From positions 1-64,000 of the forward strand of contig QCBJ01000001.1 in the NCBI GenBank assembly GCA_003281645.1: a DNA stretch of 64,000 nt, written 5' to 3'. Of this stretch, positions 4,714-62,365 are shown piece after piece. Each line of letters starts with the position of its first letter. The stretch's first letter is position 1. The stretch comes from Prochlorococcus sp. AG-347-G20 (GTDB lineage Bacteria; Cyanobacteriota; Cyanobacteriia; PCC-6307; Cyanobiaceae). The notes under the pieces are model-generated. The model did not search any database. It worked only from the letters and a program-made list of their open reading frames with translations, and had not been told where the DNA came from. A program made the translations under genes and the position numbers.

Positions 4714-5013
4714 TTAATTTTCCTCCAAACTATTAAAAGACTTTAACGCATCATCAATTGCATCAGAAGGATCAGTCGCATCATTCATACTATTTTGCCT
4801 TCTAATCATTTCCACAAGTTCAAAAGGATTAGTTGGAAGAGCTGAACTATCATCTACTGTTTTAGTTGAGGTATCAATTTCTAATTCTTCAAATAAATAT
4901 TCAGCATTTAGGTAATCACCTTTTAAGGAAATTAATAAAGTAAAAAAAATCACAAAAGTTATTTGTCTAGGCAGGCTTTTGCAAAAATAATTTTTCATTT
5001 TATTTAATTTCAA
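4714..5013 (-). CDS. Small secreted or membrane-anchored hypothetical protein, 99 aa
   Basis: The 99-residue product begins with a basic stretch (about residues 1-16) and one hydrophobic segment (about 18-32), consistent with a signal peptide or signal anchor. The rest is short and acidic: TDPSDAIDDALKSFNSLEEN at the end, and NPFELVEMIRRQN near residue 62. No known domain is recognised. It is first in a probable minus-strand transcript leading to larC. It is divergent from xthA, with 57 bases between the start codons. Confidence 0.55.
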   Translation of the reverse strand: MKLNKMKNYFCKSLPRQITFVIFFTLLISLKGDYLNAEYLFEELEIDTSTKTVDDSSALPTNPFELVEMIRRQNSMNDATDPSDAIDDALKSFNSLEEN

Positions 5014-5070
5014 AATTCTTTAACACCATAAATACTTTGCTAACTTAATTTTACATAATTTGGTAGAAAT

Positions 5071-5916
5071 ATGTTAATAGCAACTTGGAATGTTAACTCT
5101 ATAAGAACAAGACTTTCACAAATAAGAGATTGGATTAGTAAAGCCAATCCAGATATTCTATGTTTGCAGGAAACAAAAGTGATGGATGATATTTTCCCTA
5201 TTGATCCTTTTGAAAAATTAGGATACTCAGTAGAGGTCTATGGGCAAAAATCATACAATGGTGTAGCTATTATTTCTAAAATAAAGCCAGAAAATGTTAA
5301 AAAAGGATTTTACGGTTGTACTAACTTTGATCAAAATATCGAAATTTTCTTAGATCAAAAAAGATTGATCTCTGCTGATATTAATGGTATTAAAATCATA
5401 AATGTTTACGTGCCAAACGGCTCTTCTCTAGAATCTAATAAGTTCAAATACAAAATTAATTGGTTAAATTGTTTAGCTTCATTTTTGGATGACCAAGAAA
5501 AAAAAGGAGAATTAATTTGTCTTATGGGTGATTTTAATATTGCTCTATCTAACTTGGATATTCATGATCCAAAGAAATATGAAGGAGGAATAATGGCATC
5601 TGAGATAGAGAGAAATGCACTAAATAATGTTCTGAAAAAAAGATTAATAGATTCGTTCAGGATTTTTGAACAAAATACTGGTCATTGGAGTTGGTGGGAT
5701 TACCGTAATAACGCATTTGATTTGAATAAAGGTTGGAGAATAGACCATATATATATCAGCAAAGAACTGTCATCAAAACTAAAAAGTTGTGTCATAGACA
5801 GCTCACCTAGAGGTAATTTGCGTCCAAGTGATCATGCCCCAGTAATGATAGAACTTAACTTAAACGACATAACTGAAGATTTTTTTGAGGATGAGGATAA
5901 TTTCTTCGAAATATAA
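5071..5916 (+). CDS. xthA: Exodeoxyribonuclease III (AP endonuclease)
   Basis: This 281-residue enzyme belongs to the exonuclease III/APE1 family, which cleaves the backbone at abasic sites and removes blocked 3' ends in base excision repair. Catalytic motifs in order: ATWNVNSIRTR at the start, CLQETKV near residue 32 (metal-binding Glu), NVYVPNGS near 110, GDFNIA near 150, and SDHAPVMIEL near 260 (catalytic Asp-His). The length is normal for the family. A short acidic tail follows the domain. The ATG is the first in frame. Confidence 0.93.
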   Translation: MLIATWNVNSIRTRLSQIRDWISKANPDILCLQETKVMDDIFPIDPFEKLGYSVEVYGQKSYNGVAIISKIKPENVKKGFYGCTNFDQNIEIFLDQKRLISADINGIKIINVYVPNGSSLESNKFKYKINWLNCLASFLDDQEKKGELICLMGDFNIALSNLDIHDPKKYEGGIMASEIERNALNNVLKKRLIDSFRIFEQNTGHWSWWDYRNNAFDLNKGWRIDHIYISKELSSKLKSCVIDSSPRGNLRPSDHAPVMIELNLNDITEDFFEDEDNFFEI

Positions 5917-6070
5917 ATAAGATAAATTGAATTTCTTTAATGCCTGAAAACGCTTATTAATAAAGAGTTATCAAAAATAAGATTGTTTTTTATCATGATT
6001 TCTTTAAAATTAATAATTTACAATCCAAACTATCGCAATAAAAATATCATAATGTAGAATTTCAATCTGA

Positions 6071-6099
6071 TTGACAAAATTTTTACTTATTTCTAATTT
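6071..6099 (+). promoter_or_regulatory. Candidate sigma-70 promoter of hemL
   Basis: A perfect TTGACA hexamer (6071-6076) is followed after 17 bases by TAATTT (6094-6099). The expected transcript would have a leader of about 37 bases before the GTG start of hemL. This is read from consensus only; the AT-rich background makes chance -10 matches common, but the full -35 with ideal spacing is notable. Confidence 0.5.
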
Positions 6100-6142
6100 A
6101 GAACATGACAAGATTTTTCTTAAAACATCATTTAGCTAAATT

Positions 6143-7444
6143 GTGACTGACATATTAAATTACACAAAATCTGAAGAAATTTTCTCTGCAGCCCAACAAC
6201 TAATGCCAGGAGGAGTTAGCTCTCCAGTAAGAGCTTTTAAGTCTGTAGGTGGCTTACCAATTGTTTTTGATAGAGTCAAAGGTCCTTTTGCTTGGGATAT
6301 TGATGGAAATAGATATATTGACTATATAGGAAGCTGGGGGCCGGCTATATGTGGACATGCTCACCCTGAAGTTACAACAGCATTACAGGAAGCAATTGAG
6401 AAAGGCACGAGCTTTGGTGCTCCATGCGTTCTAGAGAACAAACTTGCTGAAATGGTAATAGATGCAGTCCCATCTGTAGAAATGGTTAGATTTGTAAATA
6501 GTGGAACTGAAGCGTGCATGGCTGTTTTGAGACTCATGCGAGCATTTACTGGAAGAGATAAAGTCATCAAATTTGACGGTTGCTATCACGGCCATGCTGA
6601 TATGTTTTTAGTAAAAGCAGGATCTGGTGTAGCCACTCTGGGTTTACCAGATTCTCCAGGTGTTCCACGGACAACAACTGCCAACACACTTACGGCACCC
6701 TACAATGACCTTGAAGCAGTAAAAAAATTATTTTCTGAAAATCCTGATGCCATTTCTGGCGTTATACTCGAACCTATCGTTGGTAATGCTGGATTTATTA
6801 CTCCAGAACCTGGATTCTTGGAAGGATTAAGGGAATTAACTACTGAGAATGGATCCCTATTAGTTTTTGACGAAGTAATGACTGGATTCAGAATAAGTTA
6901 TGGAGGCGCTCAAGAAAAATTTGGGGTTACTCCTGATTTAACCACCCTTGGGAAAGTAATTGGTGGCGGCCTACCTGTTGGAGCTTATGGAGGCAAGAAA
7001 GAAATAATGGCAATGGTAGCGCCTTCAGGACCGGTATACCAAGCAGGTACTTTGAGCGGCAATCCTCTTGCAATGACTGCTGGAATAAAAACTCTAGAAC
7101 TGCTCAAACAAGATGGTACTTACGATAAACTTGATTCAACAACTTCTAGATTAATTGAAGGGATAATTCAGTCTGCAGAAAATAACGGTATCGCTATCAA
7201 TGGTGGAAGTGTAAGTGCTATGTTTGGATTTTTCTTATGCGAAGGGCCAGTAAGGAACTTTGATGAAGCCAAAACAAATGATGCCGAACTTTTTGGCAAG
7301 TTGCATAGAGAAATGCTTCTACGAGGAATTTACCTAGCCCCAAGTCCCTTCGAAGCTGGTTTCACATCACTAGCTCACAGCGAAGAAGAAATTGATAAAA
7401 CTATCGAGGCTTTTGACGAATCTTTCAATGCAATAAAAAAATAA
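6143..7444 (+). CDS. hemL: Glutamate-1-semialdehyde 2,1-aminomutase
   Basis: This 433-residue PLP enzyme converts glutamate-1-semialdehyde to 5-aminolevulinate, the first committed tetrapyrrole precursor, and so supplies chlorophyll, heme and cobamide synthesis. Seen: [13 protein letters not shown] near the N-terminus, [18 protein letters not shown] near residue 115, the PLP-binding Asp in [12 protein letters not shown] near 245, and the Schiff-base lysine in [12 protein letters not shown] near 272. Length and motifs are typical. Translation appears to start at GTG. A hairpin spans its stop codon. Confidence 0.97.
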
Positions 7445-7487
7445 TCATTTACCTGTCTTTCTTCAAAGAAAAATAAGTAAATGATTA
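7442..7487. terminator. Hairpin between convergent hemL and SPFH genes
   Basis: An 11-base inverted repeat, TAATCATTTAC (7442-7452) and GTAAATGATTA (7477-7487), begins on the stop codon of hemL and lies 28 bases from the stop of the convergent SPFH gene. The interior can pair further (TCTTT with AAAGA). It has no long T-run directly after the stem on either strand, so it may act as a weak or bidirectional terminator or as a 3'-end protector. Confidence 0.5.
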
Positions 7488-7515
7488 AAACTTGAGAAAG
7501 ATTATTTCTAAATAA

Positions 7516-8319
7516 TTACCTTCTACCACCAACTATAACTGGGGGAGTACCTCCTTCTGAACCAGGCAAGCCAGGAACTACTTGTGTACTACCATCCCAT
7601 TTGTCGAGAAATAATTTGAAAAGTACCTGATCGTCAAGACTTCTATTTAAAGTCTCATATCTAAGTGCCTCTTGTTCTGCAATTTCAACTTCTGTCTTTG
7701 CTCTTAGTAATTGCTGACCAGCTATTTGCTTTTGTTCGATTGCAGCTCTATATTCTTCAGCGATCTCTAATCCAGTGAGATCTAAACTTTTAACATCTAC
7801 ATAATCGAATGAATTTAGTTCTTGTGCAACTGTATCCCCTACTTTCTCAGAGATTACTGCGAATTCAGTAGCAATTGTTTCTAGCTCATATTGAGAAAAG
7901 ACTGATTTTAGAGCTTTTAGCAAAGATGGCTGAACAATTTTCTGATAAACATCGCTATTTCTGCTTGCAATTGTTGCGAAAATTCTTCCTGCTTCATTAG
8001 GCTTTACTGAGTACTTAACAGTAGCTGTAGCCCTTATAACTTGAAGATCTTTGGTTAAAGTTTCAAATTTTTCGGGTTGAACTTGAGTTTTTATATCAAA
8101 TGGATATACAGATTGAACAAATGGAAGTTTAAAGTTTAAACCTGCTCTCCTGGAGGGGCCACTTACTTTCCCTAGTGTTGTAACAACTGCAACTTGTCCA
8201 GAAGGTACAACGAATAGAGATTGTGTTAGCAAAAGAAAGCCAGTAAAAGACAATACAATCAATAGTGTTGCTGTCCCACCAGGACCTGTTGGTGTGACAT
8301 TTTTAAAGGATGTTGACAT
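7516..8319 (-). CDS. Prohibitin-type SPFH-domain membrane protein
   Basis: The 267-residue protein has one N-terminal membrane segment (about residues 18-38), an SPFH/Band 7 domain (VVPSGQVAVVTTLGKVSG near 38, then PFDIKTQVQPEKF near 90) and a C-terminal helical stretch rich in Glu, Ala and Gln (about 190-235) typical of oligomerising prohibitins. The tail is glycine/proline-rich. These proteins form ring-like scaffolds in membranes, often thylakoid-associated in cyanobacteria. It stands alone, convergent with hemL. The family is clear, the exact role is not. Confidence 0.85.
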   Translation of the reverse strand: MSTSFKNVTPTGPGGTATLLIVLSFTGFLLLTQSLFVVPSGQVAVVTTLGKVSGPSRRAGLNFKLPFVQSVYPFDIKTQVQPEKFETLTKDLQVIRATATVKYSVKPNEAGRIFATIASRNSDVYQKIVQPSLLKALKSVFSQYELETIATEFAVISEKVGDTVAQELNSFDYVDVKSLDLTGLEIAEEYRAAIEQKQIAGQQLLRAKTEVEIAEQEALRYETLNRSLDDQVLFKLFLDKWDGSTQVVPGLPGSEGGTPPVIVGGRR

Positions 8320-8429
8320 TAAATTTTATCTTTATAATTTATCATATTTAAATAGACTAATTAGTGCATTAATAAGACATTTAATTAAAATGTTTTTTTA
8401 ATAATTGTAAGTTTAAATATAAATATTTA

Positions 8430-8639
8430 TTAGTAGATATTTGATTTAAATTCTTGCAAAAGTTTCAAATAAAGATCCTCATCTATTTCCCTAATGTCAT
8501 ATTCAGAGGGTAAAACACCATGCTTATGCTCATGTACCGCCATCCAACAAAATTTTTCTATTTCTTCTTTTGAAAAACGAGGATATTCTTTTACTTTTTT
8601 AATCAATGATTCAATTAAGGATTCTGAATTATCTAACAT
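8430..8639 (-). CDS. Hypothetical protein, 69 aa
   Basis: This small acidic soluble product (69 residues) contains FCWMAVHEHKHGVLPSEYDI, where a His-rich HEHKHG stretch precedes a charged helical tail. I do not recognise a domain. It lies 26 bases downstream of the YajQ gene on the same strand, so it is probably the last gene of that run. Confidence 0.5.
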   Translation of the reverse strand: MLDNSESLIESLIKKVKEYPRFSKEEIEKFCWMAVHEHKHGVLPSEYDIREIDEDLYLKLLQEFKSNIY

Positions 8640-8665
8640 ATTTTTAAATAGTCCTATTAAAGATC

Positions 8666-9163
8666 TTATCTAAAGTTATTAGCTTTTAGAGGAATGTTCA
8701 AAGACTCTTCCAATTCACCAACAAGCTTAATTGCTAATTGAAGATCATTTTTGCTCTTACTAGCAACTCTGAGTGTTTCTCCATTGATGCTGACATTGAT
8801 TTTTTTTATTTGATCTCTAATATTTTTACTGATTTTTTTTGCTATTTCTTGTTTAATTCCTTGTCTTAATAAAATTGTCTGTTTAATTCTATTACCACTA
8901 ACCATTTCAATTTCACCGTAGTCAAATATTTTTAGAGATAAGTTTCTTTTTATTGCCTTTTGTCTAATTATGTCATTGACAGCATTTAAGGTTAGTTCAC
9001 TATTGGTGATTATAAAAATATTTTCTTTATCTAATTCAACTGAGGTGTCTGTGCCCTTCAGATCGTAACGTTGAGAAATTTCCCTTTTTACTTGATCCAA
9101 AGTGTTGACTAATTCTTGTCTATCAAAATCAGAAACTACATCAAATGAAAAACTTTCTGCCAT
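8666..9163 (-). CDS. YajQ-family nucleotide-binding protein (UPF0234)
   Basis: The 165-residue product begins SFDVVSDFDRQELVNTLDQ and continues with QRYDLKGTDTSVEL, the signature of the YajQ/UPF0234 family. These are small cytosolic proteins with two ferredoxin-like domains; some members bind cyclic-di-GMP or other nucleotides. The length matches the family (about 160-165). It lies 66 bases downstream of the SLOG-like gene in a minus-strand run. Confidence 0.9.
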   Translation of the reverse strand: MAESFSFDVVSDFDRQELVNTLDQVKREISQRYDLKGTDTSVELDKENIFIITNSELTLNAVNDIIRQKAIKRNLSLKIFDYGEIEMVSGNRIKQTILLRQGIKQEIAKKISKNIRDQIKKINVSINGETLRVASKSKNDLQLAIKLVGELEESLNIPLKANNFR

Positions 9164-9229
9164 AGCAAATTATTAAACGCTAGATATTATTAGCATAAAT
9201 CATCTTATAAAAAGGGGAAATGGATTAAT

Positions 9230-9742
9230 TTAATCGAAAAATAACAAACTAACCACTTTTCCCATTTCTTCAGCGCACCTGCAACTATTTAGTAAAGTTT
9301 CACTATCATGAAAGGCAAAACATATTAATTGATCACACCTAGTAATAATTTCTTGATTACAAAGACTGCTTGCAAGTGGCAAAGGTAATTCATCATTTTC
9401 ACTTTTTTCAACCAAATGCATAACCCTTTCAAGTTGTTCCTTTATTTCGGGTATTTGTCTATCAAGACTTTGTGGTAATAAGACGGTTAATAATGATGGA
9501 TTAATATCTAAGACAGCTCGAATAACAGCTGCATTGACACCTTGAGAACCAGAAGTAAGGATATTATGCCCTTCCTCTGCTAGCGACCTTGCTATCAGCT
9601 CTATTAAGTGGATGTCGACAACTGGTACGTGTCTAGTGCCCAAAAAAGCAATTCTCCTTTTCCCATTATCTTGGAGTTTTGCAAGTTCTTGAGCTAAGGC
9701 ATCAACGCCTTCAGTTGCAGGCAGATCTAAAGAGCGACTCAA
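9230..9742 (-). CDS. SLOG/DprA-like Rossmann-fold protein
   Basis: The 170-residue product contains RRIAFLGTRHVPVVDIHLIE near residue 29 and LTSGSQGVNAAVIRAVL near 63, a pattern like the nucleotide-binding loops of the DprA/LOG (SLOG) superfamily, which cyanobacterial genomes often label 'DNA recombination-mediator protein A'. It lacks the extra domains of true DprA, so a role in DNA uptake should not be assumed. It sits 25 bases after the DRTGG-domain gene, and the pairing suggests a shared role, perhaps nucleotide or metabolite sensing (inference). Confidence 0.65.
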   Translation of the reverse strand: MSRSLDLPATEGVDALAQELAKLQDNGKRRIAFLGTRHVPVVDIHLIELIARSLAEEGHNILTSGSQGVNAAVIRAVLDINPSLLTVLLPQSLDRQIPEIKEQLERVMHLVEKSENDELPLPLASSLCNQEIITRCDQLICFAFHDSETLLNSCRCAEEMGKVVSLLFFD

Positions 9743-9767
9743 AATAATATAGTTACTTTATTTGAAA

Positions 9768-10877
9768 TTAGCATTTATCTGAAAAATTGCAGGGAAAATC
9801 AATCTTTTCGAGAATTCTTTTTAAATTTACATGCTCTTGAACTAATTGAATAGCATAAGAAGCTTTAATTGATTCATGTATCCTGACATGACCAAAAGCT
9901 TGTTCAATAATCTCTACGGAAGAAAGAGTATCTAATTCCACTTTTAAAATTGGCACCTCCAATTCCTCCGCTCTATGAATCAATTGTGACAAAGGATCTC
10001 CTAAACCAGTTAAAATTAGACATTGAGTCGAAGCCTCCAAAGCAGCAAGTTGTATATCAGTTCTATCAGCACCAGTCACTACAGCCATATTTCGTCTTCT
10101 CCTGAAAAATTCCATTGCAGAATTTACCCCCATTGCACCAATACTTAATGTTTCAACAAGTAATTGATCTTTTTCAGGACAACAAATTACTTGGGCATCT
10201 AGTCTTCTTACAAGCTCACCGACGGTGACACTTCTAAGAAGTGGTGATTTAGGCATCACACCAAACACTTCAATATCCAGATCTTTAAGAGAAGGTATTA
10301 TTTCATTTTTAACTTTTTCAACTTCTTGCGGTAAAACTCCGTTCAATACAACTCCAGTCAATTTCTCACCTAATTGTTTTTTCGCATCAAGTAATGCATC
10401 CACGCTTTTACAATCTTCCCATAAATTCACAATTAAAACTTCAGCATCTAAATCCTTAGCTAGTTGTGGGAGACTTAGGCCATAAACCATACCTTCATGA
10501 AGACTTCCAGCAGCTTCTAAAATATTCAGACCTTCAAAATCATCATTAACCAAACCTTCAATTTGATCAAACCCTTTTCCTGGCAGTAAGTCTTTATTAA
10601 AGATTCTTTTTTCAGCTGAAATATTATCCAATAACCCTACTGACGAAATTAAATTCTCCTCTTCGATATTTAATGTAGAGCCAATAAACTTAACATCATC
10701 ATCTATTAATCCTTCATAGGACATTGAAGGAAGATTAGTAAGTTCAATACATGTTGCAAGTGGTTTACCTATACGAACTTTTTTTTTCTCCTGTAAAAGT
10801 CTTTTTGCTATCCCAAGAACCATTGCAGACTTACCACTAAATGGCTCACATGAACCAATTAATAATATATCGCTCAT
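9768..10877 (-). CDS. BioD-like P-loop plus DRTGG-domain protein (phosphotransacetylase-related)
   Basis: The 369-residue protein has an N-terminal P-loop domain (GSCEPFSGKSAMVLGIAKRL at about residues 7-26, a Walker A variant like dethiobiotin synthetase) and a C-terminal DRTGG domain (about 225-340; here the motif reads VTGADRTDIQLAALEAS). The same arrangement forms the N-terminal part of long bacterial phosphotransacetylases, but the catalytic PTA domain is absent. The function is unknown and probably regulatory. It is first in the minus-strand run leading to the SLOG-like and YajQ genes. Confidence 0.75.
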   Translation of the reverse strand: MSDILLIGSCEPFSGKSAMVLGIAKRLLQEKKKVRIGKPLATCIELTNLPSMSYEGLIDDDVKFIGSTLNIEEENLISSVGLLDNISAEKRIFNKDLLPGKGFDQIEGLVNDDFEGLNILEAAGSLHEGMVYGLSLPQLAKDLDAEVLIVNLWEDCKSVDALLDAKKQLGEKLTGVVLNGVLPQEVEKVKNEIIPSLKDLDIEVFGVMPKSPLLRSVTVGELVRRLDAQVICCPEKDQLLVETLSIGAMGVNSAMEFFRRRRNMAVVTGADRTDIQLAALEASTQCLILTGLGDPLSQLIHRAEELEVPILKVELDTLSSVEIIEQAFGHVRIHESIKASYAIQLVQEHVNLKRILEKIDFPCNFSDKC

Positions 10878-11031
10878 AATTAGTAAAATTATTTATCAAT
10901 AAGTTCAAGATAATATTTTTTTCAGAACTAAACAAATATTTATTTATGAGTTTTAATCAAATAAAAAATAAATAATTTTTTTTTTGGTAAATTGATTTTA
11001 ATTCATTGGTATCTCATAAAAATCAAGCAAA

Positions 11032-11751
11032 ATGATAAATTCAACCAAAAACGAAAAAACTGTGGGCATTACAGGAGCCTCAGGAGCACTAGGGAAAGAG
11101 TTAACAAAGTTGTTTCGTAAAAAAGGATATAAAGTGATTGGATTTACTCATAGTAAAACTAATTATGAAACAAATCTTGAATCTCCAAATGAATGGATCA
11201 AATGGAAGTGTGGGAGAGAGTCGTCATTAAAAAAACACTTAGAAAAGATAGATATTTTAATTTTGAACCATGGTATATATGATTTGAGTAGAGAAAATTC
11301 CAATTATGAAAACTCGATAGAAATAAATGCATTAAGCAAATTCAAATTTTTAAATTTATTTGAAGATGTTGCTCTAAGCAATGATTCTGTAAGAAAAAAA
11401 GAGATTTGGATAAACACATCTGAAGCAGAAATATTACCAGCACTAAATCCGTCATATGAGATTAGTAAATCCCTTATTGGTAAATTAGTTTCTTTCAAAA
11501 AAAATCTTTTAGACAAAAATACAAAGAACAAATTAATAATTAAAAAAATCATCTTAGGGCCTTTCAAATCAGAACTAAATCCTATTGGAATAATGAGTCC
11601 AAAATTTGTTTCTAAAAAAATTTATGATTTAGCCAATTCAAAAAATTATTTAATAATAATTAGTCCCAACCCTTTAACACACCTACTTTTCCCATTGAAA
11701 GAATTTTTTAATTTTTTATATTGCCAAATAATCTATAAGTACAAATCTTAA
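11032..11751 (+). CDS. Short-chain dehydrogenase/reductase family protein
   Basis: The 239-residue product has an N-terminal NAD(P)-binding motif, GITGASGALGKELTKLF (residues 13-29), then DILILNHGIYDLS near 75, equivalent to the NNAG motif, and NTSEAEILPALNPSYEISKSL near 130-150, where YEISK supplies the YxxxK active-site pair. The substrate is not predictable. The C-terminus is hydrophobic and lysine-rich. The last codon is 3 bases from the convergent map stop. Confidence 0.75.
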   Translation: MINSTKNEKTVGITGASGALGKELTKLFRKKGYKVIGFTHSKTNYETNLESPNEWIKWKCGRESSLKKHLEKIDILILNHGIYDLSRENSNYENSIEINALSKFKFLNLFEDVALSNDSVRKKEIWINTSEAEILPALNPSYEISKSLIGKLVSFKKNLLDKNTKNKLIIKKIILGPFKSELNPIGIMSPKFVSKKIYDLANSKNYLIIISPNPLTHLLFPLKEFFNFLYCQIIYKYKS

Positions 11752-11754
11752 TGT

Positions 11755-12594
11755 CTAGAAATCTCTATCTGTCAATATTTCAATCCCATCTCTTAAAACA
11801 ACTATTGTATGCTCCCATTGTGCCGATAATTTTCCATCTTTTGTTATTACGGTCCATTTATCATTTAATGTTTTGCAAAATTTAGTACCTTCATTAACGA
11901 TAGGTTCCACAGCTAATGTCATTCCCTCACGGAGGACGACGTTGGGCAACTCTTTAGTCCGAAAATTAAATACTGATGGTTCTTCATGAAGATTTCTTCC
12001 AACTCCATGCCCTGTATAGTCTTCCACAACACTAAAGCCATTTTTTAATACAATATCCTCGATTTCCCCAGCCACATCTAGGAGTGTATTCCCTGCTTTG
12101 ATTTTTGAAAGTCCCGCATACAGTGCTTTATAAGCTACATCGCTAAGATTTTGAGCTTTTGCACTAACTTCTCCCACACAAATTGATATGCAACTATCCC
12201 CATGGAAACCATCTAAATATGCTCCTGTATCAATTTTAACTAAGTCACCATTTTTAATTATTTTATTTTTACTTGGTATTCCATGAACAACCTCATTATT
12301 AATGCTAGAACAGATACTAGAAGGAAATCCATGGTACCCCTTAAAACTTGGAACAGCTCCAAAACTTTTTATCCTCTTTTCTGCGAAATCATCTAAATCT
12401 TTTGTGCTCATTCCAGGTTGAATTAAGTCATTAATTTCCCTCAAAACAGTTGCTACAATCCTGCTAGATTTTTTCATCAAATTTATTTCACGTGAAGACT
12501 TTATTTCAATTCCTCTTCTCCTCTGAATAAAAGGAACTTGATCATTGGCCTTGGAATTATTTTTATTTAACAAAAGATCTGCAAAATGTCTCAT
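11755..12594 (-). CDS. map: Methionine aminopeptidase, type I
   Basis: This 279-residue metalloprotease removes the initiator methionine from new proteins. The family core is clear: GYHGFPSSICSSINNEVVHGIP near residue 105, metal-ligand aspartates in KIDTGAYLDGFHGDSC near 143, the metal-binding His in DYTGHGVGRNLHEEP near 200, and Glu residues in LAVEPIVNEG and QWEHTIVV. It has an N-terminal extension of about 30 residues before the domain. The ATG is divergent from the PepSY-like gene 96 bases away. Confidence 0.95.
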   Translation of the reverse strand: MRHFADLLLNKNNSKANDQVPFIQRRRGIEIKSSREINLMKKSSRIVATVLREINDLIQPGMSTKDLDDFAEKRIKSFGAVPSFKGYHGFPSSICSSINNEVVHGIPSKNKIIKNGDLVKIDTGAYLDGFHGDSCISICVGEVSAKAQNLSDVAYKALYAGLSKIKAGNTLLDVAGEIEDIVLKNGFSVVEDYTGHGVGRNLHEEPSVFNFRTKELPNVVLREGMTLAVEPIVNEGTKFCKTLNDKWTVITKDGKLSAQWEHTIVVLRDGIEILTDRDF

Positions 12595-12689
12595 TGGAAT
12601 AAATAATGGTATTAGGTAGATATCTTCAAAATAGCCATTTTGTTCTTGGCTATCTTAAATCTATCAATAACAATGGGAAAGAAACAAAA

Positions 12690-12998
12690 ATGAAAATTTT
12701 ATTTAATTCTAGGCAATTTCATAAGGCTTTGGCGCCATGGGTTTTTCTTCCATTATTCGTATCTTCGATTACCGGCCTTATTTATAGGGTTTCAAAAGAT
12801 ATATTAGGCTACTCAAGAGAACAAGTTCATTGGTTAATGTCTCTACATGAAGGCGAATGGCTTGGAGATAATGGAGAATTAATATATGTAATATTGAATT
12901 CCCTTGGGGTTTTATGGATGCTCGTAACGGGATTTCAAATGTTTTCAAAATCAATTTCATTTACCAAAAAGGTTACTAAAGGTGAGTCAAAAGGTTAA
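12690..12998 (+). CDS. Small PepSY-type membrane protein
   Basis: I chose the ATG at 12690 over upstream candidates because it follows GGGAAAG and gives a compact 102-residue protein. It has two hydrophobic segments: one near residues 13-30 (LAPWVFLPLFVSSITGLIYR) and one near 68-85. The short hydrophilic part between them reads LMSLHEGEWLGDNG. The arrangement RQFHKALAP-hydrophobic-TGLIYR resembles the membrane ends of PepSY proteins. The function is unknown. It is 32 bases upstream of rplS on the same strand. Confidence 0.6.
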   Translation: MKILFNSRQFHKALAPWVFLPLFVSSITGLIYRVSKDILGYSREQVHWLMSLHEGEWLGDNGELIYVILNSLGVLWMLVTGFQMFSKSISFTKKVTKGESKG

Positions 12999-13030
12999 GA
13001 TATTAAACTTGTAGGATAAAAAAGACCAAA

Positions 13031-13501
13031 ATGGCCAAAGATAAACAAGAGAATGAATTAGAAACCGCTACTAAAGCTGACTTATCAGTTGATGTAGCAG
13101 TTGAAGAAAAAGAAAAAAAAATGGTTTCTGAAACTACGCAATCCTTAAGCGCATCCAACCTTATTAAGGATTTTGAGGATGAACAATTAAAAAAAGAATT
13201 ACCTGAAATTTATGTTGGCGACACTGTTAAGGTGGGAGTAAAAATTACAGAAGGTAATAAAGAAAGAGTGCAACCTTATGAAGGTGTTGTCATAGCAAAA
13301 AGGCATGGAGGTATCAACCAGACTATTACAGTAAGAAGAATTTTTCAGGGTATAGGTGTTGAAAGAGTATTTATGCTACATAGTCCACAGGTTGCCTCTC
13401 TAAAAGTTGAACGTAGAGGTAAAGTAAGAAGAGCTAAGTTATTCTATCTGAGAGATAGAGTAGGAAAAGCTACTCGCGTAAAACAACGCTTTGATCGATA
13501 A
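13031..13501 (+). CDS. rplS: Ribosomal protein L19
   Basis: L19 sits at the interface of the two ribosomal subunits. The conserved domain spans about residues 43-150: [20 protein letters not shown], then [31 protein letters not shown], and a basic C-terminus with [17 protein letters not shown]. At 156 residues it is longer than the usual 115 or so because of a charged N-terminal extension of about 40 residues rich in Glu, Lys and Thr. The gene is followed directly by tRNA-Trp. Confidence 0.97.
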
Positions 13502-13539
13502 AGTTGTAAATTAATCAACTTATTGGTCACAAAGGCGCC

Positions 13540-13545
13540 TATAAT
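13540..13545 (+). promoter_or_regulatory. Candidate -10 element for tRNA-Trp
   Basis: A perfect TATAAT hexamer lies 9 bases before the 5' end of tRNA-Trp, placing a start point just upstream of the tRNA. No good -35 hexamer is seen at normal spacing; a GGCGCC palindrome (13534-13539) immediately precedes it. The tRNA could therefore be made independently of rplS. Confidence 0.4.
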
Positions 13546-13554
13546 TATTTAAAT

Positions 13555-13627
13555 GCGTCGTTAGTTCAGTTGGTAGAACGCAGGTCTCCAAAACCTGATG
13601 TCGGGGGTTCAAGTCCTCCACGACGCG
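13555..13627 (+). tRNA. trnW: tRNA-Trp (anticodon CCA)
   Basis: A 73-base cloverleaf: acceptor arms GCGTCGT and ACGACGC pair over 7 bases, the anticodon stem CAGGT/ACCTG encloses the loop with CCA, and the T arm contains GGTTCAAGT. The discriminator base is G and CCA is not encoded. It lies between rplS and the PSHCP gene. Confidence 0.95.
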
Positions 13628-13662
13628 TTTGATCAACATTATGTAAATCATTTTTTCATAAG

Positions 13663-13857
13663 ATGGAGTTAGATCTTCAACCTGGGGACGTAGTTAAAGT
13701 CCTTGAATCAGCGGCTTTAGGATGGGTTCGTGCAAGAGTCATCAGAGTTAAGTCTGGTGGAAGAGTTGTCGTACAAAGTGACCAGGGCAGAGAATTTACC
13801 GCTAGAGGCAACCAAGTTAGGTTGATAGAACCTGCTGGTTTTAGACCTCAAAAATAA
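13663..13857 (+). CDS. Hyper-conserved picocyanobacterial protein PSHCP (Tudor/SH3-like, RNA-binding)
   Basis: The 64-residue basic product contains LQPGDVVKVLESAALGWVRA, then RVIRVKSGGRVVVQSDQG and FTARGNQVRLIEP: a small all-beta barrel pattern. It matches the protein described as almost invariant across Prochlorococcus and marine Synechococcus, flanked by tRNA-Trp/L19 on one side and tRNA-Asp/gltX on the other, exactly as here. From memory, published work reports a Tudor-like fold, RNA binding and association with ribosomal protein L2. I identified it by sequence and synteny, not by search. Its codons are visibly more GC-rich than those of its neighbours. Confidence 0.88.
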   Translation: MELDLQPGDVVKVLESAALGWVRARVIRVKSGGRVVVQSDQGREFTARGNQVRLIEPAGFRPQK

Positions 13858-13978
13858 ACAGTTGTTTATATTAAGGCAGCTGTAAAACGAAGTATTTCTG
13901 TAAATCCTCAAATTAATAAAATTTTTTTATTACAACACCATAAATTAAGTATTATGATCTGATAATTTTAAGAATGAA

Positions 13979-13998
13979 GTTCTAAATAAATTTAGAAC
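13979..13998 (+). other. Perfect 8-bp hairpin just upstream of tRNA-Asp
   Basis: GTTCTAAA (13979-13986) and TTTAGAAC (13991-13998) pair around a four-base TAAA loop and end 8 bases before tRNA-Asp. No T-run follows, so a classical terminator is unlikely. It could end or protect the 3' end of the PSHCP transcript, or mark a processing site in a longer RNA. Confidence 0.4.
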
Positions 13999-14006
13999 AA
14001 AACTCT

Positions 14007-14080
14007 GGGACCGTAGTTCAACTGGTTAGAGCACCGCCCTGTCACGGCGGAAGTTGCGGGTTCGAATCCCGTCGGTCCCG
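14007..14080 (+). tRNA. trnD: tRNA-Asp (anticodon GTC)
   Basis: A 74-base cloverleaf: acceptor arms GGGACCG and CGGTCCC pair over 7 bases, the anticodon loop CTGTCAC carries GTC, and the T arm is GCGGGTTCGAATCCCGT. The discriminator is G and CCA is not encoded. It lies 17 bases upstream of gltX. Confidence 0.96.
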
Positions 14081-14097
14081 TTTTTATAAAAAAGAAT

Positions 14098-15528
14098 TTG
14101 GAAAAACGTTTAAGACTAGCCCCGAGTCCAACGGGTTTATTTCACATTGGGACAGCGCGAACAGCATTATTCAACTGGTTGTATGCACAAAAAATAGGCG
14201 GAAAATTTCTTATTAGAATAGAAGATACAGATTTTCTTCGATCTAAATCTGAATATACAAAAAATATATTAGAAGGATTGAAATGGCTTGGACTTAAATG
14301 GGATGAAGAACCTATAAAGCAAAGTGATCGAATTTCGATTCACAAAAGTCATATCAAAAAGCTATTAGAATGTGGTGCTGCATATAGGTGCTTTACAACA
14401 GAAGATGAAATTTCTGAATTAAGAGAAAAACAAAAAAAGAAAGGATTACCTCCAAAGTATGATAATAGACACAGAAGTCTTTCAAAAGAAGAAATAGAAA
14501 CATTCATATCCCAAGGGAGGACTTCAGTAATAAGGTTTAAGATTAATGAAAAAATTGAAATTAAATGGGTAGATCAGATAAGAGGAGAAATCAAATGGCT
14601 AGGGAAGGATTTGGGTGGTGATTTAGTTTTGTCAAGAAGGGCAAAGGGATATGAGATTGGAGATCCTTTGTACAATCTTGCAGTTGTAGTTGATGATAAT
14701 TTCATGAATATTACTCATGTTGTAAGGGGTGAAGATCATATCTCAAACACTGCAAAACAAATATTGATTTATAAAGCATTAAATTTTAATTTGCCAACTT
14801 TTTCACATACACCCTTAATACTAAATAGTGAAGGGAAAAAATTATCTAAGAGAGATTGCGTAACTTCAATCGACGAATTTAGAGATATGGGATATTTACC
14901 TGAGGCCTTATCGAACTATATGGCCTTTTTAGGTTGGTCTCCAAAAACTGCCGACAGAGAAATACTTTCACTTGAAGAGATATCTGAAATTTTTGACTTA
15001 TCAGAAATAAATAAAGCTGGAGCCAAATTCAGTTGGGAAAAACTCAACTGGATTAATTCTCAATATATAAAAAATATGGAATCAATAAAGTTAAGTGAGA
15101 TCATGAGAAAATATTGGGATGATAATGGGTGGGTGCCCCCGTCTCAAGAATGGGCTAATAAATTAGCTATTTTGCTTAGAGACTCTATGACTCTTTTAAA
15201 AGACTCAATTGATCAATCAAAACCATTTTTCTTAATACCTACAATTCAAAAAGAAGGTCAATATTTTCTGGAAAACAAAGATAGCAAATTTTCTCTAAAA
15301 CTAATCTTAAATTATTTAATTGAACAAAATACTATAAAACTAAATAAAGAGAAAGCTAAGGAAATAATAAACGAAATCTCAATAATGCATAATATTAAAA
15401 AAGGGATATTAATGAAATCATTAAGAGTAGCCTTTTTTGGATCTCTCAGTGGGCCAGATTTAATTCAAAGTTGGGAGCTTTTCGCAGAGAGTAAAACTGA
15501 TAGAACTCGAATTGAAAGGTGTCTTTAA
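14098..15528 (+). CDS. gltX: Glutamyl-tRNA synthetase
   Basis: This class I synthetase of 476 residues charges tRNA-Glu. In cyanobacteria Glu-tRNA feeds both translation and, through glutamyl-tRNA reductase, 5-aminolevulinate synthesis, upstream of HemL in this window. The HIGH motif is [15 protein letters not shown] near the N-terminus, and the KMSKS-type motif reads GKKLSKRD near 247. LFNWLYAQ and RIEDTD are also typical. Cyanobacterial GltX is often non-discriminating and also forms Glu-tRNA-Gln (known for the group, not shown here). The apparent start is TTG. Confidence 0.96.
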
Positions 15529-59731: not shown

Positions 59732-61222
59732 TTATTGAATATCTCTTAAAAATTTATTGGCCGTTTTTAGGTGATTATTTAATTTTTCCTCTGACATTTT
59801 ATCGAGATTTCTCGTTAACATTGCCAGACGATACTGCTTTCTAAAAAAACTTTCATTATCTTTAATAAATTTCCAAAACAAGCCATCCCATATTTCACAC
59901 CATGGGCCACTTTTAAAATTAGACATTTTTTTTACATAATTTGAGCTTGATATATATGGTTTTGTTGAAAAGATACCTCCATCACTAAACTGACTCATTC
60001 CGTAAACATTTGGGACCATAACCCAATCATAGGAATCAATAAACATTTCCATAAACCATTTATAAACTTGATTGGGGTGAATTCTACATAGAAGCATGAA
60101 GTTACCAATAATCATTAACCTCTCAATATGGTGACAATAACCATATTTAATAATATTTTTTATAACAACGTCTACTGGTTCAATTCCTGTATTTCCTTGA
60201 TAAAAACATTCTGGAATTGGCTTATCTTCAAAATCCCAAAAATTACTGTTTCGCATCTTTGTTCCATACTTTTTATAGACAAGACAAATAAATTCTCTCC
60301 ATCCAATAATTTGACGAATAAAACCCTCTAAAGAATTAATTGGAACATTATTATTTTTGGCATAAAGTAATGCTTTATTTACTACTTCATTTGGCGTTAG
60401 TAAGCCACTATTTAAAAGAGGAGAAAGTAAACTATGCCATAAAAAAGAATTTTCTCTAGAAATAGCATCCTCATAATCTCCAAATAAGAAAAATCTATGT
60501 TTAAAAAAATCATTTAACCATTCATCTGCCTCATCAAAATTAGTTGGATATAAAAAGTTATTACTTTCTCCAATAAACGCAATATCAAAATTGGCTAATG
60601 ACCTTTCTGCATTAACTACAAATTTATTTTTTTGTAATTTAGGTGTATCGGGTATATTTATTTTTTTTGGTAATTTTTTTCTGTTCATTTCATCGAAACT
60701 CCATTTACCACCTTCAGGTGTATCATCAGGATTAACTAATATCTTTTGGCTCTTTCTTTGATTCTCATAAAATCTCCCCATAAGAGGTTTTTTTGCATTT
60801 GATGCAAATAAATCTTTTAAACCTTTACTGCTCATAAACATAGGAGAAGGCAAAATATTTAAAGCTAAATTATTACTTTCTACAAAATTATTAATCCTCT
60901 TCATTATTAAAAAATCATGAGGGTCAATGAGATTTATTTTCTGATATTTATTTTTAATAAATTCCGATAAGTAATCAGCTGTAGAAACATTATTCTTGTT
61001 TTCGATATACAAAACTTTAAAGCCAGATATTTCTAAATAATTTTTATAAGCGAGCATAGATGCTCTATGAAAAACTAACTTATTTTTATGGTTAATTAAT
61101 TTATGAAATTTATCATTTCCAAAAAATAATGAGTCTTCCAAAATCAAAACTTCACAATTTATTTTTAAGATTGGGCTTTCTCTAAAAAGTTGATTCGGGA
61201 AAATAATTGATACTTGTTTCAT
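59732..61222 (-). CDS. Cryptochrome/photolyase-related protein (DPRP / FeS-BCP clade)
   Basis: The 496-residue flavoprotein matches the deoxyribodipyrimidine photolyase-related family (COG3046), whose members repair (6-4) lesions or act as photoreceptors. Seen: [13 protein letters not shown] and LILEDSLFF at the start, [14 protein letters not shown] near residue 300, [18 protein letters not shown] near 360, and [22 protein letters not shown] near 420 (FAD site). Homologues with an Fe-S cluster have four cysteines; here the Cys-x-x-Cys after the FAD motif is replaced by NFKSGPW and the pre-helix Cys by QVYKWF, so the cluster is probably lost. ATG overlaps the DUF2256 gene by 4 bases. Confidence 0.88.
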
Positions 61223-61350
61223 CTTTGCGACTTCCTGTTACTGCATCTTTTAGAACAGTAGATAACATCATCCCAACAGTTTTTCCATTTTTTACGCCAC
61301 TCAAAGGGCCTATTGCAAACAGGACAAGTTTTAGTAGAAAGATTTTTCAA
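61219..61350 (-). CDS. DUF2256-family zinc-ribbon protein, 43 aa
   Basis: This short ORF, beginning at TTG, contains [19 protein letters not shown] followed by [13 protein letters not shown]. The CPVC and CSKRC pairs should bind one zinc ion. The pattern matches the DUF2256 family, which from memory is often next to or fused with photolyase-related proteins. It starts 3 bases after the DUF2805 gene and its stop overlaps the photolyase start (ATGA), so these genes are probably translationally coupled. Too short for routine gene callers. Confidence 0.85.
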
Positions 61351-61353
61351 AAT

Positions 61354-61590
61354 TTATAATTTTCTTTTATGAGTAGATTTAAATCTAGTTGAATCTTTAA
61401 GGGCCAAATGTTTTGTATTTCTTCCCGAAACTCTCTTTCTCCAGACTTTGAAAGATTTGGGTTTAAGATTTTGACGCATAATTTTTATCGCATCTTCCTC
61501 TTTTAAACCAAATTGATACTCGATAGCTTCAAAGGGTGTTCTATCTTCCCAACACATTTCAATTATTCTATCTATATCGATACTTTCCAT
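61354..61590 (-). CDS. DUF2805 / TIGR03643-family protein
   Basis: The 78-residue basic product contains IDRIIEMCWEDRTPFEAIEY, then QFGLKEEDAIKIMRQNLKPK, and KVWRKRVSGRNTKH, which I recognise as the TIGR03643/DUF2805 family, probably helix-turn-helix-like in its first half. It is small, basic and may bind nucleic acid (inference). It starts 2 bases after the DCC protein gene and lies 3 bases before the DUF2256 gene. Confidence 0.85.
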   Translation of the reverse strand: MESIDIDRIIEMCWEDRTPFEAIEYQFGLKEEDAIKIMRQNLKPKSFKVWRKRVSGRNTKHLALKDSTRFKSTHKRKL

Positions 61591-61592
61591 AT

Positions 61593-61985
61593 TTATTGTT
61601 CACATTGTGAGGTACATAGTTTTTCAAAATCGGATCTGCCTGTAATTTGAAGTCTATATTTTGCCCAATATCTGTAAACCAATCTCAATAATGGAGACAA
61701 GAGCTTAATCTTCAAGGGATAATAAACCCAACCTAAACCAACTAATTCATAAGAATATGCAAGTACATCTAATCCCCTAATAATTTCACCATTTTCAATA
61801 ATCCCATGCAGGTTTGACATAGCTTCTGAATATGAGATGTCATTAAAAAGACTTTGATCATAATCCTTACTATTAATATCTATGAATGCAATTTGATTTA
61901 AAGTATCTCTTTTTTTAAGAAAATTTGTTTCTCTCAAACAAAGTGGACAACCGCCATCGAATAAAAAGGTTAATTTATTTTTCAT
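61593..61985 (-). CDS. DCC-family thiol-disulfide protein (DUF393)
   Basis: The 130-residue product has LTFLFDGGCPLCLRETNFLKKRD at the N-terminus, with the DxxCxxC motif of the DCC (DUF393) family, a thioredoxin-like fold predicted to be a thiol-disulfide oxidoreductase. The middle has IDINSKDYDQSLF and MSNLHGIIENGEIIRGLDVLAY, both family features. First in the run leading to DUF2805, DUF2256 and the photolyase. Redox partner unknown. Confidence 0.88.
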   Translation of the reverse strand: MKNKLTFLFDGGCPLCLRETNFLKKRDTLNQIAFIDINSKDYDQSLFNDISYSEAMSNLHGIIENGEIIRGLDVLAYSYELVGLGWVYYPLKIKLLSPLLRLVYRYWAKYRLQITGRSDFEKLCTSQCEQ

Positions 61986-62115
61986 ATTTATTTCAAATAT
62001 AGAAATTAAATAACTTTTTTGTGGAATAAAAAATTTTTTTTAGAGTACAAGCTTTATAAAGCCTTAATAATTGCCAGTTCTAATTAAGTGAAATTATATT
62101 ATCTTATTAATTAAT

Positions 62116-62147
62116 AAGCCATTGATTAAGGGATACATCAATGGTTT
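62116..62147 (-). terminator. Hairpin downstream of the 67-aa gene
   Basis: CCATTGAT (62119-62126) pairs with ATCAATGG (62137-62144) around a 10-base loop, with further A/T and G-T pairs extending the stem. It starts 15 bases after the stop of the minus-strand 67-aa gene. The following bases are T-rich but not a run. Confidence 0.45.
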
Positions 62148-62161
62148 AAAACTATTTATGA

Positions 62162-62365
62162 TCAGTCATCTAGAAGATGAACTCCTTCTCCTATATCAGG
62201 AGTAAATTTACAATATTTTTCAAAAATAAGTCCAACACCTCTCATTTTTTCTCCTAATTCATCGTTAAATTTATTCCATTCTTCCGATTCACGATCAGGT
62301 AAATCCCACCCTTGTTTTTCTACCATACTTGTTATTACTGTATAGTCCCATTCTATGTATGCCAT
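62162..62365 (-). CDS. Hypothetical protein, 67 aa
   Basis: The 67-residue acidic product begins MAYIEWDYTVITSMVEKQGW and continues WNKFNDELGEKMRGVGLIFE to KFTPDIGEGVHLLDD. It has no membrane segment. I do not recognise a family, but the pattern is not random and the ORF is well isolated, so it is probably a real gene of marine cyanobacteria. It is divergent from trmH. Confidence 0.5.
   Translation of the reverse strand: MAYIEWDYTVITSMVEKQGWDLPDRESEEWNKFNDELGEKMRGVGLIFEKYCKFTPDIGEGVHLLDD

Follow-up and report, generated by a model that had tools for sequence, protein, structure and literature searches.

Two small proteins, DUF2805 and DUF2256, recur beside photolyase-family genes in three phyla

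The four-gene unit and its photolyase

We analyzed a 64,000-base stretch of Prochlorococcus sp. AG-347-G20 (contig QCBJ01000001.1, positions 1 to 64,000; hereafter the window), which belongs to a genome of 1.46 Mb that is 86.6% complete. At 59732-61985 of the window, four minus-strand genes follow one another in the order DCC, DUF2805 (TIGR03643), DUF2256 and DPRP, the last encoding a photolyase-family protein (Table 1). A preliminary description of this DNA had reported the four open reading frames (ORFs) and their tight spacing, and all of this was borne out: 2 nucleotides separate DCC from DUF2805 (61591-61592), 3 separate DUF2805 from DUF2256 (61351-61353), and DUF2256 and DPRP share the 4 nucleotides ATGA (61219-61222). 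A single reading frame holds DUF2805 and DUF2256, with a stop codon plus one further codon between them.

All four proteins exceed the curated Pfam cut-offs. DUF2805 scored 112.6 bits against a cut-off of 22.5 (123.7 against 66.55 for TIGR03643), DUF2256 scored 66.1 against 25, and DCC, whose sequence contains D-G-G-C-P-L-C, scored 86 against 27.8; in the DPRP protein, both the DPRP N-terminal domain (PF04244) and the photolyase FAD-binding domain (PF03441) were over the cut-off. All 25 loci of the window's type (L091-L115) have the genes in this same order, including L098, in which the DCC and DPRP frames are broken, and L111, which is cut by a contig end. Pooled ratios of nonsynonymous to synonymous substitution (dN/dS) were 0.18 for DCC and 0.15 for DPRP (26 sequences each), and 0.07 for DUF2805 and 0.16 for DUF2256 (28 sequences each), which places all four genes under purifying selection; values well under 1 show both tiny frames to be genes. 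We note that L094, a 3394-base contig of a Rhodobacteraceae metagenome-assembled genome, carries the four-gene unit with a DUF2805 99% identical to that of the window; it is most probably a contaminant from Prochlorococcus.

Table 1. Genes and candidate control sites of the four-gene unit (window coordinates)
Feature	Position	Strand	Evidence and remarks
DCC1-like thiol-disulfide oxidoreductase gene, 130 amino acids, first in unit	61593..61985	-	PF04134 E 5.6e-24
DUF2805/TIGR03643 gene, 78 amino acids	61354..61590	-	PF10985 E 1.1e-32; TIGR03643 E 2.4e-36
DUF2256 gene, 43 amino acids, TTG start	61219..61350	-	PF10013 E 3e-18
DPRP gene, 496 amino acids	59732..61222	-	PF04244 E 8.7e-43; PF03441 E 1.4e-7
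Palindrome GCTTTATAAAGC, candidate operator or RNA hairpin	62051..62062		65 nucleotides upstream of DCC start; conserved in 26-sequence alignment
Inverted repeat CCATTGAT-N10-ATCAATGG, candidate control site or end of upstream transcript	62119..62144	-	conserved in 26-sequence upstream alignment

Judged by its sequence, the DPRP protein is of a known type, Phr2 or PromaPL, a (6-4) photolyase without an iron-sulfur (Fe-S) cluster. Its nearest solved structures are the prokaryotic (6-4) photolyases 8ijy, 9hnk, 4dja and 3zxs. The FeS-BCP proteins (Agrobacterium PhrB, Rhodobacter CryB and SePhrB) are homologous over most of its length (E 1.3e-58 to 3.3e-70), but when the window protein was aligned to 8ijy, three of the Fe-S ligand positions, which we take to be those of PhrB, fell in gaps and the fourth was a proline. 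The earlier placement in the DPRP/FeS-BCP clade therefore stands by homology, and the Fe-S cofactor that it implies does not, as the window protein lacks the ligand cysteines. By analogy, the window protein would repair (6-4) photoproducts.

PromaPL, also called Phr2, is known from Prochlorococcus and marine Synechococcus and has no Fe-S cluster, the Fe-S cysteines being absent from PromaPL and from most Phr2 proteins (PMC9178010, PMC9426592). Like the window protein, PromaPL/Phr2 has a PhrB-like N-terminal domain; DUF2805 and DUF2256 are not mentioned in the passages of these two papers that we saw. Each Synechococcus photolyase gene, including phr2, increases the survival of Escherichia coli after ultraviolet (UV) exposure, and the gain from phr1 to phr3 is mostly light-dependent (PMC9426592); SePhrB produced in E. 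coli was active in vivo and in vitro (PMC9178010). Our E. coli control genome matches PF03441 and matches neither DUF2805 nor DUF2256. Since related photolyases work in E. coli and E. coli lacks both families, the small proteins are dispensable for catalysis, and the notion that the photolyase requires them for it was not supported. The Prochlorococcus photolyase relative PMM0425, which we read as the counterpart of the window DPRP gene, has no clear diel pattern (PMC3441193). The mutT-phrB operon of MED4 is likewise a UV-related Prochlorococcus photolyase operon with unexplained upstream control, but it pairs a nudix hydrolase with a photolyase of a different class (PMC2955971).

Recurrence of the small proteins beside photolyase genes

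The photolyase of the unit is already known, and the part of further interest is the recurrence of the two small proteins. DUF2805 and DUF2256 recur beside photolyase-family genes in other lineages and in three phyla, an association that is well supported and extends beyond a few close strains. The first counts for DUF2805 rest on the best 80 loci of a larger scan, among which the named loci closest to the window are from Prochlorococcus. A photolyase-family ORF was present in flanks of up to 10 kb at 25 of the 53 loci outside Prochlorococcus, within 2 kb at 24 and within 150 bases at 12, and DUF2256 was present in the flanks of 21 of the 53. Five loci from related lineages (L121, L148 and L250-L252) have DUF2805, DUF2256 and DPRP with no adjacent DCC. 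Among 29 other cyanobacterial DUF2805 loci (1.5-kb flanks), 4 had a photolyase-family ORF, one of which is a fragment (G048); in three of those four (L007, L011 and L024), as in the window, DUF2805 is upstream of DPRP and the two genes share a strand. DUF2256 was found in 35 of the 42 genomes sampled from among the 80 loci, one of them (G293) through a contaminant contig. A search of 50,697 phage records gave no DUF2805 match; DUF2256 was not searched there.

For DUF2256 we drew a sample more even than the best-scoring loci, consisting of every second of the first 79 places in Pseudomonadota (40) and 18 of 20 such places in Bacteroidota, G375 and G457 having been dropped for their short contigs. 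As controls we took, from the same Pseudomonadota genomes, 20 stretches that lay 100 kb from these places. A photolyase-family ORF lay within 5 kb of DUF2256 in 15/40 Pseudomonadota and 13/18 Bacteroidota places, compared to 0/20 controls, and DUF2805 was found in the same stretches in 1/40, 6/18 and 0/20, respectively. The best-scoring DUF2256 loci, examined separately with ∼1.5 kb on each side, had a photolyase-family ORF in 25/30 cases in Bacteroidota, 11/30 in Pseudomonadota and 10/20 in genomes chosen for DUF2805.

Several individual loci show the arrangement directly. Photolyase, DUF2256 and TIGR03643 lie side by side in the Pseudomonadota genome L304 and also on the Acinetobacter plasmids L275 and L285, where nudC follows. 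In Vibrio parahaemolyticus, DUF2256 sits between msrB and a run of SDR, photolyase and cryDASH genes. The Acinetobacter and Vibrio plasmid clusters differ from the window in gene order and strands, and no DCC is annotated in these stretches; among 13 annotated plasmid stretches with a DUF gene that we picked, 5 have a photolyase. On the Thioclava plasmid L286, DUF2256 ends 5 bases ahead of a gene for an SOS response-associated peptidase. In flavobacteria the genes form islands, which we describe as a composite of related loci (L129, L131, L147, L155, L156, L158 and L164). They include DUF2256 and DUF2805, the photolyase-family genes cryDASH and DPRP with a third gene of that family, and a photolyase of the cyclobutane pyrimidine dimer (CPD) type; with them are genes for a flavin reductase, GTP cyclohydrolase I, an SDR protein, glutathione peroxidase and TspO, as well as a TetR regulator, an ABC1 kinase and a DUF2867 protein. 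A pterin antenna and flavin reduction would suit a function in light repair. The L147 island spans 4955-15217 and has several photolyase-family genes together with GTP cyclohydrolase I, SDR, glutathione peroxidase and TspO.

The recurrence bears on whether genome streamlining in Prochlorococcus merely packed unrelated genes together. The genome is small, and the same genes lie apart in many other cyanobacteria, as such packing would predict. However, the linkage of the DUF genes with photolyases recurs in the larger genomes of two other phyla with none in the 20 controls, and DCC also recurs near DUF2256 in unrelated genomes; chance packing is thus already weakened, and we consider it very unlikely.

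The inclusion of DCC in the cluster, also part of the preliminary description, held for the window's lineage with few recurrences elsewhere, and DCC was absent near DUF2805 and DUF2256 in the Bacteroidota loci. A profile built from Prochlorococcus alone had made DCC look purely lineage-specific, a view dropped when a check showed it at L260 and L259 and a wider profile then found it at more loci. With the wider profile, DCC adjoins DUF2805 in one cyanobacterium outside the window's type (L004/L256) and lies within 5 kb of DUF2256 in 3/40 Pseudomonadota places (L315, L322 and L327), 0/20 controls and 0/18 Bacteroidota places; three of the matches from this profile have Pfam support, and L322 and L259 are the same place. 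At L260 (3052-5125, Pseudomonadota), DCC, photolyase and DUF2256 are contiguous on one strand, and at L327 DCC lies ahead of DUF2256 and DPRP on the same strand. Counted together, four Pseudomonadota genomes have DCC close to DUF2256, and in two of them a photolyase is present as well. At L121 and L148 there are DCC fragments ∼8 kb off on the opposite strand. DCC is thus a rare but recurrent neighbor, in numbers too small for a test.

The preliminary description had also called for a check for fusions. We read ten long DUF2256 frames (L257-L262, L224, L234, L246 and L248) and found no fusion with photolyase in them. These open frames, up to 687 amino acids in GC-rich genomes, were read as spurious outside the DUF2256 domain, since they contain no photolyase match in frame and the domain is closely preceded by a start codon. 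A DUF2805-NUDIX domain architecture is listed in a table of one paper (PMC6856373).

We also compared whole genomes; the P values in these comparisons ignore shared ancestry and are all too strong. Among 111 genomes of Cyanobiaceae, DUF2256 was present in 49, DPRP in 55, FAD_binding_7 photolyases in 68 and DUF2805 in 16. Both DUF2256 and DPRP were found in 48 genomes, DUF2256 only in 1, DPRP only in 7 and neither in 55 (Fisher P = 1.3e-22). This was also seen within photolyase-positive genomes, where DUF2256 was present in 48/55 with DPRP versus 1/13 without. DPRP was present in all 16 genomes with DUF2805, and DUF2256 in 15 of them. Among 148 Bacteroidota genomes, a photolyase-family match was found in 49/50 genomes with DUF2256 versus 44/98 others, and at least two photolyase-family genes in 46/50 versus 3/98; these counts take in G345, whose DUF2256 is below the cut-off, and G416, which has a partial match and lacks a photolyase; of the 93 photolyase genomes, 9 are under the family cut-off. 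In a phylum sample of 194 genomes (DUF2805 in 38, DUF2256 in 89 and DPRP in 58, with G048 scored as DPRP from a fragment), all 38 genomes with DUF2805 had DUF2256 and 25 of the 38 had DPRP.

Predicted folds and the region upstream of DCC

The DUF2256 model (mean predicted local distance difference test score [pLDDT], 85.2) consists of a hairpin and a helix that resemble a treble-clef zinc finger, with the pattern C-x2-C-x19-C-x3-C. The cysteines C9, C12, C32 and C36 are kept in 24/24 alignment rows (two pieces of a broken copy, L135, excluded), and a WRKKW patch is nearly invariant. The top Foldseek match was YacG (probability 0.97, E 0.1), and in a second fold comparison YacG (Z 3.3) tied with an FCS finger (3.6) and a pre-60S ribosomal chain (3.4). 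From these weak matches, the fold may be that of a YacG/FCS-like zinc finger. YacG, a DNA gyrase inhibitor, has a similar CPxC...CSxRC pattern, but its ligand pairs are closer together and it lacks the WRKKW patch. The DUF2805 model (mean pLDDT, 76.9) has helices at residues 3-15, 20-27, 31-41 and 44-55. Its fold matches were weak and included LsrR, SorC, DeoR and sigma-factor domains (Z of 4.2 or less), with helix-turn-helix or sigma-factor chains, judged from their titles, in at least 14 of 20 rows; the protein is possibly helix-turn-helix-like. The protein also has a conserved basic C-terminal stretch. In sequence searches of solved structures, the candidates 2DGel3 for DUF2805 (E 0.047) and ribosomal L24 for DUF2256 (E 0.033) were set aside as chance or faint resemblance.

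A helix-turn-helix-like protein encoded inside the operon could be a local regulator, with DUF2805, partnered by DUF2256, controlling its own unit by binding GCTTTATAAAGC upstream of DCC. The core of this palindrome, CTTTATAAAG, is upstream of DCC in 24 of the 25 L091-L115 loci (twice in L115; altered in L091) and, across their 442,163 bases, is confined to this place, which speaks for such regulation. Against it, L121, L148 and L250-L252 lack the core, as do ten stretches that surround other photolyase genes. Among the best 80 DUF2805 loci it was found at the 24 of the window's type and at L146, ∼4.6 kb from DUF2805, and its absence at DUF2805 loci elsewhere, despite the strong conservation of DUF2805, argues against DUF2805 as its reader. 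In an alignment of 47 chosen DUF2805 sequences, moreover, no helix is less conserved than the predicted recognition helix (mean 1.32 bits), and the most conserved segments are residues 14-19 (0.22) and 56-61 (0.48), a pattern that suggests a conserved partner more than the reading of a promoter. We therefore regard local regulation by DUF2805 as unlikely.

Other signals around the unit were few. Promoter-like matches were at chance (21 versus a mean of 19.4 in shuffles), and the scan gave no terminator-like site. Three matches to known RNA elements upstream of DCC were all below gathering scores and were rejected, and the DCC leader folds barely better than shuffles (z -1.19). A 67-amino-acid ORF upstream of DCC (62162-62365, minus strand) matched nothing in Pfam or NCBIfam; the 26-sequence upstream alignment shows conservation at its 3′ end.

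A possible accessory role in the UV response

Taken together, these data make it plausible, in our tentative view, that the unit is a photoreactivation and UV-response operon in which the small proteins have an accessory role. The photolyase alone would repair (6-4) photoproducts with blue light. DUF2805 and DUF2256 would be noncatalytic; most likely they would bind either nucleic acid or a conserved machine that works on it, with gyrase and RNA polymerase as candidates, and so assist the cell in handling damaged DNA while photolyases act. DCC would be an occasional redox member. We found no paper connecting DUF2256 or DUF2805 with photolyase in open-licence PubMed Central.

A number of observations weigh against this accessory role or set limits on it. 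The function of related photolyases in E. coli, described above, speaks against an obligate partnership, as does the absence of a photolyase-family ORF from all 30 best-scoring cyanobacterial DUF2256 loci outside the window's family (∼1.5 kb); in 19 of the 30 (L031-L060), an asparaginase-family gene adjoins DUF2256 on the same strand. Even in Cyanobiaceae, DUF2256 lies within 5 kb of DPRP in just 8 of the 48 genomes that have both. In the phylum sample, DPRP is missing from 34/89 genomes with DUF2256 and from 13/38 with DUF2805. Within Cyanobacteriia (89 genomes, classed by their recorded kinship), DUF2805 shows no association with DPRP (25, 13, 28 and 23; P = 0.38), and the association of DPRP with DUF2256 is weak (P = 0.024). 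Eight of the 13 plasmid stretches have no photolyase near the DUF gene, and at L148 (10553-11838) the photolyase gene is in six pieces beside an intact DUF2805 and DUF2256. The fold matches, with best Z scores of 4.2 for DUF2805 and 3.6 for DUF2256, are weak; neither small protein had a Foldseek match at E of 0.001 or below, and a profile comparison of DUF2256 with YacG (hhalign) was also weak (probability 28.7, E 0.0006). Finally, a metagenome correlation study groups DUF2805 with translation-linked domains (PMC3597751).

Some of these contexts would suit proteins that share a stress and have separate jobs, that is, light- or oxidative-stress proteins co-expressed with photolyases without any physical or mechanistic link to them. 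The glutathione peroxidase, TspO, flavin reductase and SDR genes of the flavobacterial islands, the place of DUF2256 next to msrB in V. parahaemolyticus and its asparaginase context in other cyanobacteria are all compatible with separate jobs. We take RSP_3077 of Rhodobacter sphaeroides to be cryB. A table of the RpoHI/RpoHII regulons gives this gene alongside RSP_3075 and RSP_3076 (PMC3441632), which would likewise fit a shared stress. On the other hand, DUF2256 closely tracks DPRP in Cyanobiaceae and multi-photolyase genomes in Bacteroidota, and direct adjacency is frequent. Separate jobs are possible, and on balance we doubt them.

The accessory role that we favor can be put in a more specific form, in which DUF2805 and DUF2256 are an undescribed UV-response accessory module of Cyanobacteria, Bacteroidota and Pseudomonadota that accompanies several photolyase classes and acts on the DNA-handling machinery, with DCC as an occasional redox partner. 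In this full form the proposal is improbable, and any specific mechanism is speculation; in one version, gyrase or RNA polymerase would be restrained at lesions in the manner of YacG, such that lesions stay repairable by light.

Photolyases have mostly been studied as lone enzymes, and a tiny, strongly conserved pair that accompanies photolyase genes in three phyla would point the way to dedicated accessory factors in light repair. If such a role applies, DUF2256 and DUF2805, two families without an assigned function, would gain a testable role in UV survival, and they would do so in a dominant organism of the sunlit ocean.

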